A stretch of 61,589 bases of DNA, taken from assembly GCA_003282485.1 (NCBI GenBank), contig QBZD01000005.1:1-61589 (forward strand), given 5' to 3'. The position numbers and the translations under genes are program-made. The notes beneath the pieces were generated by a model. The model was given only the letters and a program-made list of their open reading frames with translations. It did no database searches and had not been told where the DNA came from. This DNA comes from Pelagibacteraceae bacterium AG-333-C14. GTDB taxonomy: Bacteria; Pseudomonadota; Alphaproteobacteria; Pelagibacterales; AG-422-B15. Position 1 is the first letter of the stretch. Every line of letters starts with the position of its first letter. Below are positions 12,410 to 17,986 of the stretch, piece by piece.

Positions 12410-14049
12410 GCGTCAGCAGTTTTAGCCATTTCTCTTAGCTCATACTTCAATATCTTTCCAGTTGAAGTTTTGGGTAGCTCAGTAAATATAACTTTTTTAG
12501 GACACTTAAAGCCAGCAAGAGTTTCTTTACAAAAAGATATTATGTCTTTCTCTGTTACATTGTCGTCCTGACTTTTTAATTCAATAAAAGCACAAGGAGT
12601 TTCACCCCATTTTTCATCAGGTTTAGCAACTACTGCAGCAAAAAGAACTGATGGGTGCTTATACAACGTATTTTCTATCTCAACTGAAGATACATTTTCT
12701 CCGCCAGATATAATGATATCTTTGCTTCTATCTTTGATCTGGACATATCCATTAGGATGCATCACTGCTAAATCTCCAGAATGAAACCAGCCGCCTAACA
12801 TTGACTTATCAGTTTCTTCTTTATTTTTAAGGTAACCTTTCATAACACAATTACCTTTAATCATAATTTCACCAATTTCTTCACCATCATTTTTAACTTC
12901 TTTCATGGTCTCTGGATTCATAACCGTAAGGCCTTCCATCATTGGAAATTTTACGCCTTGCATTGATCGCAACTTTGATTGTTCCTCGACTGATAATTCA
13001 TTCCATTCATCTTGCCATGCACACATAGATACATGACCATAAGTTTCAGTTAATCCATACACGTGTGTTACATCAAAGCCCATTTGTTGAACTGCTTCAA
13101 GGGTTGCCGCAGGTGGTGGTGCTCCGGCGGTAACAACATTAACTTTATGAGAATAGTCTCTTTTTTCATCATCAGTCGCTTGAGCTAAAAAGTTTAATAC
13201 AATAGGTGCTCCTCCAAAATGCGTAACTTTATGATCAGCTATTGCATCAAAAAGATTTTTTGCAGATACATATCGTAAGCATACACTTGTTCCTGCCAAG
13301 GCAGTTAGTGTGTATGGATTACCCCAACCATTACAATGAAACATAGGTACTACCCACATGTAAGTTGGATGCATGGCCATGCTAAATGCTGTAACTGAAC
13401 CTAATGCCATTAAATATGAACCTCGATGATGATAAACTACACCTTTAGGAAGACCTGTGGTTCCAGATGTATAATTAAGAGCAAGTGAGTCCCATTCATC
13501 TTCTGGCAAGCTCCATTCAAAATTTTCGTCGCCAGTTTTAAGGAACTCTTCATAATTTAGACTTCCAAGATTTTCTCCGGCACCTTCAGGATGATTTGCA
13601 AGTTCATCATCAATATCTATAATTAAAGGTTTAGTTTTTATTTTGCTTAATACTTCCTTAATGGTAGGTGAGAGCTCATTATCAGTGATTACTACTTTTG
13701 CTTCTCCGTGCTCAAGAATATAAGAAATGGTATCTACATCTAATCTGATATTAATTGTATTAATTATCGCTCCAATCATAGGAATTCCATAATGAGCTTC
13801 ATAAATTTCTGGAGTATTAAAGCATAAGACCGCGACCGTATCACCTTTACCAACACCTTTTTTTGTAAGAGCGCTAGCTAGCTGTTTACTTCGCTTAAAA
13901 GTATCTGACCATGTATACTTTTTAGAACCATGAATAATTGATAGTCTATTTGGATAAACTTCAGCGGATCTTTGTAAAAAACTTAATGGAGAAAGAGGCG
14001 TGAAGTTAGCGTGATTCTTGTCTAAGTTAGTATTATACATATCAGTCAT
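12406..14049 (-). CDS. Acyl-CoA ligase of the DmdB / medium-chain type
   Basis: 547-residue AMP-forming acyl-CoA synthetase. N-terminal TPLSPLSFLQRSAEVYP, P-loop YTSGTTGLPKGV, HVYGLTETYGH, HSGDLAV and SGGENVSS plus the terminal KTSTGKILK are the adenylation motifs. The N-terminal block is like the ligases that include methylmercaptopropionyl-CoA ligase (DmdB) of DMSP degraders, but related enzymes use other short or medium-chain acids. The fhs gene directly upstream on the same strand overlaps its start by one base, and DmdA-like genes occur in the window, which makes DmdB plausible but not shown. Confidence 0.85.
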   Translation of the reverse strand: MTDMYNTNLDKNHANFTPLSPLSFLQRSAEVYPNRLSIIHGSKKYTWSDTFKRSKQLASALTKKGVGKGDTVAVLCFNTPEIYEAHYGIPMIGAIINTINIRLDVDTISYILEHGEAKVVITDNELSPTIKEVLSKIKTKPLIIDIDDELANHPEGAGENLGSLNYEEFLKTGDENFEWSLPEDEWDSLALNYTSGTTGLPKGVVYHHRGSYLMALGSVTAFSMAMHPTYMWVVPMFHCNGWGNPYTLTALAGTSVCLRYVSAKNLFDAIADHKVTHFGGAPIVLNFLAQATDDEKRDYSHKVNVVTAGAPPPAATLEAVQQMGFDVTHVYGLTETYGHVSMCAWQDEWNELSVEEQSKLRSMQGVKFPMMEGLTVMNPETMKEVKNDGEEIGEIMIKGNCVMKGYLKNKEETDKSMLGGWFHSGDLAVMHPNGYVQIKDRSKDIIISGGENVSSVEIENTLYKHPSVLFAAVVAKPDEKWGETPCAFIELKSQDDNVTEKDIISFCKETLAGFKCPKKVIFTELPKTSTGKILKYELREMAKTADA

Positions 14050-15716
14050 TAAAATAATCCTTCAATTTCACCATCATCATTTAAGTGTATCGCATTTGCA
14101 GCGGGAATTCTAGGCAGACCAGGCATGGTCATTATTTTATCACACACCACTACAAGAAATTCAGCTCCAGCTGCTAATCGTATTTCTCTAATTGGAACTA
14201 TGTGATCCTTAGGAGCCCCTCGCAAATTCGGATCTGTTGAAAAACTGTATTGAGTTTTTGCAATACAAATAGGGTAATGACCATAGTTTTCCTGCAGCTC
14301 ATCGAATTGTGTTCTTATTTTTTGATCTGCAATAATATCTTTTGCTCCATAAATATCTTGTGCAATTTTCTGAACTTTATCCCACAGTTTCATTTCATCA
14401 GGGTAAAGGTGCTTTATTTTTGGATTTTCCTCAGTTGTTACATCTACAATGTGTTGCGCTAAGGTTTCTGCACCAGCTCCACCATTGCTCCAGTGAGTAC
14501 AATTAAACGATTTAATGCCAAGCTCATCGCAGCATTCACTGATTATTGAGAGTTCATTATCAGTATCGGTTATAAAATGATTAATTGCTACAGACACAGG
14601 AACTCCATATTTTTTCATATTCGAAATATGTTGTTGCAAGTTCGATAGACCTTTCCTCAAGGCGTCTAAATTTTCATTTTTCAGTTCCTTTTTATCCATG
14701 CCGCCATGCATTTTTAAAGCCCTTACAGTAGCTACGATGACTATTGCTGAAGGATTTAAATTTCCTTTTCTGCATTTTATATCTAGAAATTTCTCTGCGC
14801 CAAGATCCGCTCCAAATCCAGCTTCTGTTACTACATAATCGCTTAGCTTAAGAGCGGTTTGAGTTGCTATAAGTGAATTACAGCCATGCGCAATGTTAGC
14901 AAAAGGACCGCCATGAATGATTGCAGGATTTTCTTCTAAAGTTTGAACAAGGTTTGGGAGAAAAGCATCTTTAAGTAGAGTCGTCATTGCTCCATCTGCA
15001 TTTACGTCACGAGCTTTGATTTCTTTTTTATCTCGTGTGTAACCAATGATAATATTGCCAAGTCTTTTTTGCAGATCACTAAGACTTGTTGATAAACAAA
15101 AGATCGCCATAACCTCAGAAGCAACTGTAATATCAAACTTATCTTCTCTGGGAAAACCGTTTGCTATACCTCCAAGATTTATATTTGTATTTCGCAAAGC
15201 TCGGTCATTTAAATCTACAACTCGACCCCATACTATTCTTCTTGTATCTATATTAAGATCATTTCCCCAATAAATGTGATTATCGATCATAGAAGCAAGC
15301 AGGTTATGAGCAGATGTGATTGCATGAAAATCACCTGTAAAATGAAGATTAATCTTATCCATCGGGACTACTTGAGCATAGCCACCTCCAGCAGCTCCAC
15401 CTTTAACGCCAAAACACGGACCTAAGCTTGGTTCTCTGAGGCATACCAATGACTGCTTACCTATTTTATTAAGAGCATCATTTAATCCCACTGAGGTAGT
15501 AGTTTTACCCTCACCAGCAGGAGTTGGTGAAATGGCTGTTACCAATATCAATTTTCCATTTTTGTTTTGATTTTTCAATGCGTTGGTATCAATTTTTGCA
15601 ATATGATGTCCAAACTTTTGAAGGCTATTTTCCTCAAGTTTTAGTTTTGAGGCCACCTTTTCAATTGGCACCATTTGATTTTTTCTTGCTATTTCAATGT
15701 CTGAAAGAACATCCAT
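14049..15716 (-). CDS. fhs: Formate--tetrahydrofolate ligase
   Basis: 555 residues (EC 6.3.4.3): makes 10-formyl-THF from formate, ATP and THF. The ATP loop [14 protein letters not shown] (65-78), [37 protein letters not shown] and [14 protein letters not shown] are all family signatures; GEIEGLF is the expected C-terminus. The gene is divergent from metF and the DmdA-like gene with 193 bases between them. That trio is also seen around tetrahydrofolate-dependent demethylases in other alphaproteobacteria, where Fhs and MetF recycle the methyl-THF formed. It likely feeds purine and methionine synthesis or oxidizes C1 units. Confidence 0.98.
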
Positions 15717-15780
15717 TATTTCACCTCTTAAATTTTAGTCTAGACAACTTAAGAATTTTAATTCGTGGAGTCTACAAAAA

Positions 15781-15794
15781 TGTATTGTAATACA
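15781..15794. promoter_or_regulatory. Inverted repeat in fhs-metF divergent region
   Basis: TGTATT-GT-AATACA is a 6+6 inverted repeat in the 193-base region between fhs and metF, about 54 bases before the pseudoknot element. It could be an operator or part of a promoter for either side. In AT-rich DNA such a short repeat may also be chance. Confidence 0.25.
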
Positions 15795-15834
15795 CCTAAA
15801 TTTTAAATAGATTTCTCACTAAGGAGACTCAAAG

Positions 15835-15885
15835 AACGTTGCAAAATTAAGCCAAGCAACGTTACTTAATAATCGCGTGGCTTAA
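15835..15885 (+). promoter_or_regulatory. H-type pseudoknot in metF leader, candidate riboswitch
   Basis: Two perfect 8-base inverted repeats interlock. A is AACGTTGC (15835-15842) and A' is GCAACGTT (15856-15863). B is TTAAGCCA (15847-15854) and B' is TGGCTTAA (15878-15885). The order A-B-A'-B' makes an H-type pseudoknot with 4-, 1- and 14-base connectors, the topology of SAM-II and SAM-V riboswitches. It ends 24 bases before the metF ATG, in front of a metF/GcvT operon where a SAM, THF or methyl-donor sensor would make sense. I cannot match the loops to a known class by eye. No terminator or clear Shine-Dalgarno overlaps it, so the output mechanism is open. Confidence 0.6.
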
Positions 15886-15909
15886 GCGTAAACACTTAAA
15901 TTTTTAATT

Positions 15910-16650
15910 ATGGGAAATGTGAATTTTTCATTAGAGGTGACTACGCGGACCAACTTGTCTGAGCTACCCAAGCTTAATGATATATACGTAACATTCTTGC
16001 CGGGTACAAGTTACAAGGACGTAATTGAACAGACAAAAGCTTTATCAAAATCAGGTTTTAACGCAATTCCACACTTTCCAGCTAGATCAATAACTGATTT
16101 AGACATGCTGAAAGATTATGTTGACCAAGTTAAAGAAGCTGGTGTTAAGCAAGTATTAATAATTGGAGGCGATAGAGATATTCTTGGCAATTATCATTGT
16201 TCACTTCAATTAATTGAAACGGGCTTATTCGATGGAATGAAAATTGGTATAGCAGGTCATCCCGAGGGATCTCCTAATATGAGCGATCAAGCAATAGATG
16301 AAGCGATGAAGTCTAAATCTTCATTTGCAAATTATATTGTCACTCAATGGACTCAGGATACAAATGCATTATCTGAATTTGTTAACGAAGCACCATTGCC
16401 CGTTCATGTCGGCCTTGCAGGACCAGCCTCAATGAAAACGTTAATAAAATTTGCTGGTTTTGTTGGATTAAAGAATACACTTAGCTTTGCTAAAAAAAAT
16501 GCATCGAAAATTTTTGATTTATTGACGGTACAAACACCTCATGATGTAATTCAAGAATTAAAAGGAAATGTAGATAATTTTCACATTTATGCATTTGGTG
16601 GAATAAAAAAAACAAGTGAATGGTTACAAAAGGAGAACTACTATGTCTAA
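15910..16650 (+). CDS. metF: Methylenetetrahydrofolate reductase-like protein
   Basis: 246 residues, a single (beta/alpha)8 flavoprotein domain of the MTHFR superfamily, shorter than E. coli MetF (296). The N-terminal SLEVTTRT places the catalytic Glu at residue 9. HFPARSI, LIIGGDRDILG, IAGHPEGSPNMSD and PVHVGLAGPAS mark the flavin and folate sites. It overlaps the following GcvT-like gene by 8 bases. In this setting it may work in the oxidizing direction on methyl-THF produced by the demethylase rather than in methionine synthesis. Paralogous short MetF proteins beside demethylases are known in alphaproteobacteria. Confidence 0.87.
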   Translation: MGNVNFSLEVTTRTNLSELPKLNDIYVTFLPGTSYKDVIEQTKALSKSGFNAIPHFPARSITDLDMLKDYVDQVKEAGVKQVLIIGGDRDILGNYHCSLQLIETGLFDGMKIGIAGHPEGSPNMSDQAIDEAMKSKSSFANYIVTQWTQDTNALSEFVNEAPLPVHVGLAGPASMKTLIKFAGFVGLKNTLSFAKKNASKIFDLLTVQTPHDVIQELKGNVDNFHIYAFGGIKKTSEWLQKENYYV

Positions 16651-17986
16651 AAAATTAGAACACAATACTACGGTTGATCAAAGTGATCGACATGTGCCTT
16701 ACAATTTACGTCAAAGTGGACCAACCAAAGTTGAAATGCTGATCTCTACGAGAGTCAGAAAGTCACCTTATTGGCATAAATCAATGGAAGCTGGTTGCTG
16801 GAGAGCAACAGTCTACAATCGTATTTACCATCCTAGGGGATATGTAAAGCCAGAAGATGGTGGAGCAATGGTTGAATACGAAGCAATTAAAAACCACGTC
16901 ACTATGTGGAATGTTGCCGTTGAAAGACAGATATGTGTAAAAGGACCTGATGCAGAGAAATTTACAGACTATGTCATTACTAGAGATGCTACAAAAATAT
17001 CACCTTTAAGAGCAAGATACGTAATTCTCTGTAACTATAAGGGTGGAGTTTTAAACGATCCGATTCTTTTGAGAATTTCTAAAGATGAGTTTTGGTTTAG
17101 TTTATCAGACTCAGATATTGGTCTATATCTTCAAGGTGTGAATGCTGACAAAAGATTTAATGTAGAAATTGATGAAATTGATGCATGTCCAGTTCAAATT
17201 CAAGGACCAAAAGCTGCCGCATTAATGAAAGATTTAGTCGGTGATCAAGTAGATCTCGACAACATTCCATTTTATGGACTAGCAGAAGTTACTGTTGGTG
17301 GTCGCAGCTGCGTTATCTCGCAGACAGGTTTCTCTGGAGAGTCTGGATACGAAATCTATTTGAGAGATGCGACTCTTTATGCTGATGATATGTGGGATGC
17401 AGTTTTGGAAGCTGGCAAAAAGCATAACTTAATGGTAATTGCACCGGCCCACCACAGAAGAATTCAAGCAGGAATTCTATCATGGGGTCAGGATATGGAT
17501 CATGAGCATAATCCATTCCAGTGCAACTTAGGATACCAAGTATCATTATCTGGAAAAGGAGAATGGGAAAAGAAAGGTGACTATGTTGGAAAACAAGCAC
17601 TTGAAAAGATGAAAGCTGATCTTGCTGATGGTCACAAGCCTTATAAATTACAACTAGTTGGTTTTGAACTAGAAGGTAAACCAATTGAAGAATATGCGCC
17701 TGACTTCTGGCTTGTTTCTCCTGGTGATGGTGGAGATCCATGTGGTTTCATTACATCTCCTTGGTACCATCCAGAAAAAGGAAAAAACATAGCAATGGGT
17801 TATGTCCCTTTTGACGGCTCTTTGAATGCCAATGGATTCCCAAAATGGGAGCTTGGAAAGAAATATAAAATTCACCTGCCAGATATTTATGCAGACAAAC
17901 CGGGTGAACCAGTAGATGCAGTGACTGTGGATGTGCCGTTCACTGAGTCATTCAATGCAAATACAAGGGAAGTAGTTAAAGGTTAA
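16643..17986 (+). CDS. DmdA-clade GcvT-family demethylase, first copy
   Basis: 447 residues, a THF-dependent methyltransferase fold (GcvT/DmdA). The ATG at 16643 follows AGGAG by about 8 bases; an earlier in-frame start at 16616 lies inside metF. STRVRKSPYW, YNRIYHPRG, TMWNVAVERQI, CPVQIQGPK and TGFSGESGYEIYL follow DmdA order. The block corresponding to DmdA IERIESGL is RRIQAGIL here and the C-terminal part is longer, so the substrate is probably not simply DMSP. Translational coupling to metF implies the product is methyl-THF or methylene-THF. Candidate substrates are methylated sulfur, amine or aryl ether compounds. Confidence 0.85.
   Translation: MSKKLEHNTTVDQSDRHVPYNLRQSGPTKVEMLISTRVRKSPYWHKSMEAGCWRATVYNRIYHPRGYVKPEDGGAMVEYEAIKNHVTMWNVAVERQICVKGPDAEKFTDYVITRDATKISPLRARYVILCNYKGGVLNDPILLRISKDEFWFSLSDSDIGLYLQGVNADKRFNVEIDEIDACPVQIQGPKAAALMKDLVGDQVDLDNIPFYGLAEVTVGGRSCVISQTGFSGESGYEIYLRDATLYADDMWDAVLEAGKKHNLMVIAPAHHRRIQAGILSWGQDMDHEHNPFQCNLGYQVSLSGKGEWEKKGDYVGKQALEKMKADLADGHKPYKLQLVGFELEGKPIEEYAPDFWLVSPGDGGDPCGFITSPWYHPEKGKNIAMGYVPFDGSLNANGFPKWELGKKYKIHLPDIYADKPGEPVDAVTVDVPFTESFNANTREVVKG

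Follow-up and report, generated by a model that had tools for sequence, protein, structure and literature searches.

The metF-aminomethyltransferase operon of this SAR11 genome is preceded by an interlocked pair of inverted repeats that we interpret, from sequence comparison, as an H-type pseudoknot with a cis-regulatory role, specific to this lineage and probably acting as a metabolite-sensing riboswitch; we give this reading a probability of about 0.55. That the leader is a real structured RNA restricted to one lineage is a firmer conclusion, which we consider highly probable. The window, meaning the whole 61,589-nucleotide stretch analysed, comes from a genome of 1.19 Mb, and all features below lie on its forward strand unless stated otherwise.

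Within 51 bases, two exact 8-nt complementary pairs occur in the order A-B-A'-B'. Stem A (P1) pairs AACGTTGC at 15835-15842 with GCAACGTT at 15856-15863, and stem B (P2) pairs TTAAGCCA at 15847-15854 with TGGCTTAA at 15878-15885. Between them lie loop L1, AAAA (15843-15846), a single unpaired A that separates the stems (15855), and the 14-nt loop L3, ACTTAATAATCGCG (15864-15877). An invariant GCG follows at 15886-15888, which can pair with the CGC at 15874-15876 as a 3-bp hairpin around the stem B 3' arm, while its GC can also pair with the GC at 15841-15842 in an alternative long hairpin. The letters and loops are as the original prediction described them, but its statement that such an arrangement is very unlikely by chance was too strong. 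Stems A and B are the window's only interlocked 8/8 pair with a span of 60 or less, yet at least one interlocked 8/8 pair is also found in 26/100 dinucleotide shuffles of the window, which leaves the chance argument weak. It is the conservation of the repeats, in their invariant columns and in all of the readable leaders, that argues against chance.

By protein search, metF was located in 45 of the 53 genomes of the SAR11 family; one copy is cut by a contig end, leaving 44 readable leaders. The element is present upstream of metF in 44/44 of these, with one copy per genome. Variable and invariant parts alternate sharply along the leader: in a set of 32 distinct leaders, every column of TGCAAAATTAAGCCAAGCA (19/19) and of CGCGTGGCTTAAGCG (15/15) is invariant, and the outer stem A arms together with the first part of L3 contain no invariant columns (0/15 and 0/8). 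Both arms of stem B, the single A and L1 (44/44) do not vary; in L3 the first 10 nt are variable and the last 4 (CGCG) invariant. Perfect complementarity over 8 nt links the two invariant blocks, one of 19 and the other of 15 nt (letter-shuffle p 5e-4).

No second locus carrying the element was found. The element is also missing from 20 metF leaders inspected in the sister SAR11 family, which have promoter-like sequence or a neighbouring gene close to the start, and it is absent from 385 genomes spread over the Alphaproteobacteria by both pattern and model search. Four weak model matches in the sister family are taken as chance because their alignments lack the 8-bp stem B; the two that were translated (L173 and L176) fall inside coding sequence. 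An exact-pattern scan of ~85,000 species, whose strict patterns and filters would miss diverged forms, matched 43 SAR11 records and one TM6 record. The matching named records are SAR11 (Pelagibacterales), some of them isolates labelled AG-422-B15. The TM6 match lacks stem A and the rest of the motif and was rejected, as was a viral pattern match that lies inside a coding frame and has no stem A. A metF protein query against viral contigs gave no match.

The compensatory changes by which the original prediction proposed to judge the stems were found in stem A, while stem B showed no change of any kind. The stem A arms vary among genomes with pairing kept: both sides change in 3 of the 5 variable pairs, with 16 cells against 6.0 expected from shuffles, and P1 can form in 11/11 representative variants. 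We also used a tree-aware null in which substitutions were redistributed over the branches of the metF tree in 1000 simulations. The summed covariation of stem A was reached in 6/1000 of these (p about 0.006), and for single pairs the observed value was reached in 0.4% (pair 20-40) and 4.5% (pair 17-43). The paired-cell count alone was reached in 51/1000. Since there are few independent events, covariation support for stem A is moderate. Stem B has zero variation and hence zero covariation across leaders, so covariation cannot test P2, and we infer its formation in the RNA. The leader has the H-type pairing order with a covarying P1 and an invariant P2. As a whole it is no more stable than shuffled sequence (z -0.44), and this value, together with the lack of P2 covariation and the paired-cell result, counts against a pseudoknot riboswitch.

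Folding suggests an alternative to the pseudoknot. Forcing stem B to pair produces a longer nested hairpin, GC-AAAA-UUAAGCCA-A-GC/GC-G-UGGCUUAA-GC, whose GC pairs join 15841-15842 to 15886-15887 and 15856-15857 to 15875-15876; these pairs flank B, together with a bulge of AAAA and an A-G mismatch. The predicted energies in genome G000 are -13.3 kcal/mol for the P1 fold and -13.2 kcal/mol for this extended P2; compared with P1, the nested hairpin has the greater stability in G004 and the lesser in G023, and the two are near equal in several genomes. It may be another state of the pseudoknot, and the GC pairs common to both folds make a two-state switch attractive. RNAalifold, run without pseudoknots, draws P1 plus the 3-bp CGC/GCG hairpin with a 9-nt loop that contains the stem B 3' arm, so a kissing-loop version is possible. 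Two further pairings were rejected: a longer CGC/GCG hairpin receives no support from covariation, and pairing of CGCGUGG with CUACGCG inside metF is limited to close relatives of the window, with a partial form in G050, and is not general.

The element lies in the predicted 5' UTR of metF. A promoter with a conserved pattern (15785-15813) consists of a -35 TTGTAA at 15785-15790, a 17-nt spacer and a -10 TAGATT at 15808-15813; TTGnnn-N17-TARATT occurs in 43/44 leaders, where 13-16 nt separate its end from a fixed mark downstream, near the element. Because this promoter is just upstream, the element would be expected at the mRNA 5' end, with a predicted transcription start at ~15819-15821 near AAGGAGACTCA. 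A start downstream of 15885, which the original prediction had named as evidence against itself, is therefore not what the conserved promoter predicts. The conserved 5' block AAGGAGACTCA (15821-15831), at or near the mRNA 5' end, is invariant at A3-A8 and C11-A12 of alignment A1. This nearly invariant block is Shine-Dalgarno-like, yet it is far from any start codon and none is needed there. As a genome-wide signal it was rejected, with no enrichment over a reversed control and no frequent occurrence elsewhere in the genome. Upstream of the promoter, another conserved block (15745-15784, GAGTCTACAAAAATGTATTG; 16/40 columns invariant) may be an UP element or may belong to the promoter of the divergent fhs.

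From the end of stem B to the metF AUG there are 19-25 nt in 44/44 leaders. The intervening A/T-rich spacer (15889-15909) is variable, with a mean identity of 0.66 and 2/21 invariant columns, and has no Shine-Dalgarno sequence. Sequestration of such a sequence was accordingly rejected as the output of the element. An SD-like motif precedes only 10 of the 45 genes checked in the window (35/45 have none), and initiation without it seems to be the rule in this genome. No terminator was found after the element. With neither a terminator nor a Shine-Dalgarno sequence to hide, an expression platform is not apparent, which counts against a riboswitch. The start codon itself may be structured: a predicted hairpin, AUGGGAAAU-GUGA-AUUUUUCAU (15910-15931), appears in 11/13 representatives that were folded at full length, and third-position changes in its codons either fall in the loop or preserve pairing as G-U/A-U. 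Synonymous sites in this hairpin are invariant at 3/8, against 10/128 in the rest of the gene (p 0.03). The MetF N-terminus here reads MGNVNFSLE in the element-bearing family, compared with MNFSLE or MKFSLE in the sister family. Given a metF without a Shine-Dalgarno sequence and with a predicted start-codon hairpin, control of ribosome access is the most plausible output. Tiny leader reading frames (TTG-CAA-AAT-TAA and GTG-GCT-TAA) were considered and rejected, with CTG in place of TTG in one clade and poor SD spacing.

The genes downstream bear out the original description of a C1-transfer operon containing an MTHFR and a DmdA-like gene. The first (15910-16650) encodes a metF-like 5,10-methylenetetrahydrofolate reductase of 246 aa (PF02219, 3.8e-7; best solved relative MTHFR 7xg9, 8e-33). 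It is overlapped by a GcvT/DmdA-like aminomethyltransferase (16643-17986; PF01571, 2.6e-41; nearest solved relative 3tfh), for which the listed ORF begins at 16616 and translation more likely starts from the in-frame ATG at 16643. This second gene is not DmdA proper, scoring 233.2 bits against the NCBIfam DmdA equivalog with its cutoff of 410; it is also longer, at ~447-456 aa versus 369. On the reverse strand, fhs, encoding formate-tetrahydrofolate ligase (14049-15716; NF010030, 880.8 bits), is the divergent neighbour in 44/44 leaders. In HTCC1062, a role in methyl oxidation has been proposed for SAR11_1264 (metF) and SAR11_1265, an aminomethyltransferase whose substrate is not known (PMC3160333). 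The pair described here corresponds to SAR11_1264-1265 by homology and gene order, as opposed to direct alignment. The two pairs have C1 oxidation in common, and the element is missing from the 20 sister-family leaders inspected.

In the mechanism we propose, the ~90-nt 5' leader of the metF-aminomethyltransferase mRNA would act as a cis-regulatory RNA folded into an H-type pseudoknot, with a P1 of 8-9 bp, the AAAA loop L1 and a P2 of 8 bp, and with the A-rich L3 able to lie along P1. P2, L1 and the flanking CGCG/GCG form the invariant core and would most likely be the putative binding site for a methyl or folate metabolite. Binding would fix the pseudoknot and so alter how readily 30S subunits reach the start region, which lies 19-25 nt downstream, lacks an SD and is predicted to be partly structured. 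The competing state could be P1 on its own or else the long nested hairpin, which has a similar predicted energy and is built on the same invariant GC pairs. The ligand, the translational control and the direction of switching are all parts that we infer. Candidate ligands would include, for example, 5-methyl-THF, THF, SAM/SAH, or the substrate of the aminomethyltransferase, and because the element occurs at a single locus in a single family, gene context cannot narrow this choice. We regard a metabolite-binding riboswitch of a new class as roughly an even prospect. The fuller proposal, in which a new class confined to one SAR11 family would sense a folate or methyl-donor metabolite by exchange between a compact pseudoknot and a nested hairpin sharing GC pairs, is more tentative, at slightly under even odds.

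Other explanations account for part of these observations. The leader might instead bind a protein, such as the encoded MetF or aminomethyltransferase, and mediate autogenous translational control without a small molecule. Occurrence as one copy, at one operon, in one lineage is typical of autogenous leader elements, and a protein might recognise the invariant primary sequence. Against this, neither enzyme is known to bind RNA, and the invariant core coincides with P2 and L1, as it does in pseudoknot aptamers; we consider protein binding unlikely, though deserving of some weight. A DNA-level explanation, in which a transcription factor uses the repeats, within the initially transcribed region, as its operators, could draw on the invariant parts of the dyads as protein sites and on their position downstream of the promoter. 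An operator would not, however, need the outer stem A arms to remain complementary as they change, there is no second site in the genome, and the interlocked geometry would be odd for operators, so that this explanation is very improbable.

The same covariation of P1 bears on which fold is functional. A nested long hairpin in place of a simple H-type pseudoknot would account for all of the invariant paired letters at an energy similar to that of P1, but on its own it leaves the P1 covariation unexplained. Two hairpins joined by a kissing interaction between the P1 loop and the 9-nt CGC/GCG loop would fit the RNAalifold drawing; in many genomes, however, extending the CGC/GCG stem brings in mispairs, and the linker would probably be tight. 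We find it quite unlikely that either of these is the functional fold. It is slightly less likely still that the leader is a non-switching structure that protects the mRNA or sets a basal level of translation. Its place at the predicted mRNA 5' end would suit such a role, and the conserved AAGGAGAC block might serve for ribosome standby, but 34 invariant letters, spread over two blocks, are more than a structure of this kind would usually require.

SAR11 bacteria are the most abundant heterotrophs of the ocean and have few protein regulators. An RNA switch at metF, if the pseudoknot riboswitch is real, would show how one SAR11 branch senses its C1 supply. SAR11 energy metabolism is fed by methyl oxidation, which runs through metF and an aminomethyltransferase whose substrate is unknown (PMC3160333); the ligand of such a switch would point to that substrate or else indicate folate status. 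The known pseudoknot aptamers would also gain a very small member.

The leader was compared with known riboswitch classes. The original prediction had noted that its loops do not match a known class, and in agreement with this no Rfam 15 family matches in the window or in seven homologous loci, where the only hits were chance matches to rox2, a Rickettsia sRNA and a snoRNA. Nor did the models for the classes that it had proposed searching (SAM-II, SAM-V, SAM-SAH and THF) give a match. SAM-V had none at the gathering threshold or at E up to 10 in the window and E up to 5 in the seven loci, and SAM-II, THF, THF-II and SAM/SAH stayed below their cutoffs in both. The genome-wide RNA-discovery literature that was checked, mostly outside subscription journals, makes no mention of a metF leader, and an earlier report is possible. 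THF (RF01831) and THF-II could share a folate-type ligand with the metF leader, without a match to it. The architecture of the THF and THF-II riboswitches differs from that of the metF leader. SAM/SAH (RF01727) has an H-type pseudoknot, as proposed for the metF leader, and a methyl-cycle context in common with it, with no match at E up to 10.

The likeness to SAM-II and SAM-V that was originally proposed holds for the H-type order but not for class membership, since the 4-nt AAAA loop cannot supply a third strand. SAM-II (RF00521) shares the proposed H-type topology and its occurrence in Alphaproteobacteria, but the metF leader lacks the long L1 with U-A-U triples and has other invariant letters. 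SAM-V (RF01826) is the closest in style to the proposed fold, as a short H-type pseudoknot of SAR11 in a C1/methionine context with a nearly invariant P2 core. Most of the P2 triplex core of SAM-V is >97% conserved, and U9/U10 of its major-groove third strand form U-A-U triples around the sulfonium (PMC6061858). In SAR11 it precedes metY, bhmT and mmuM (PMC2704228). Within the 53 family genomes SAM-V was found in only 2 (L096 and L097) and not in G000 by whole-genome search, though it is known from other SAR11. The metF leader differs from SAM-V in an L1 of four adenines, where SAM-V has a U-containing third strand of 6-7 nt, in a distance to the AUG of 19-25 nt versus within ~10 nt, in having no Shine-Dalgarno sequence to occlude, and in the gene that it precedes, which is metF in place of metY, bhmT or mmuM.
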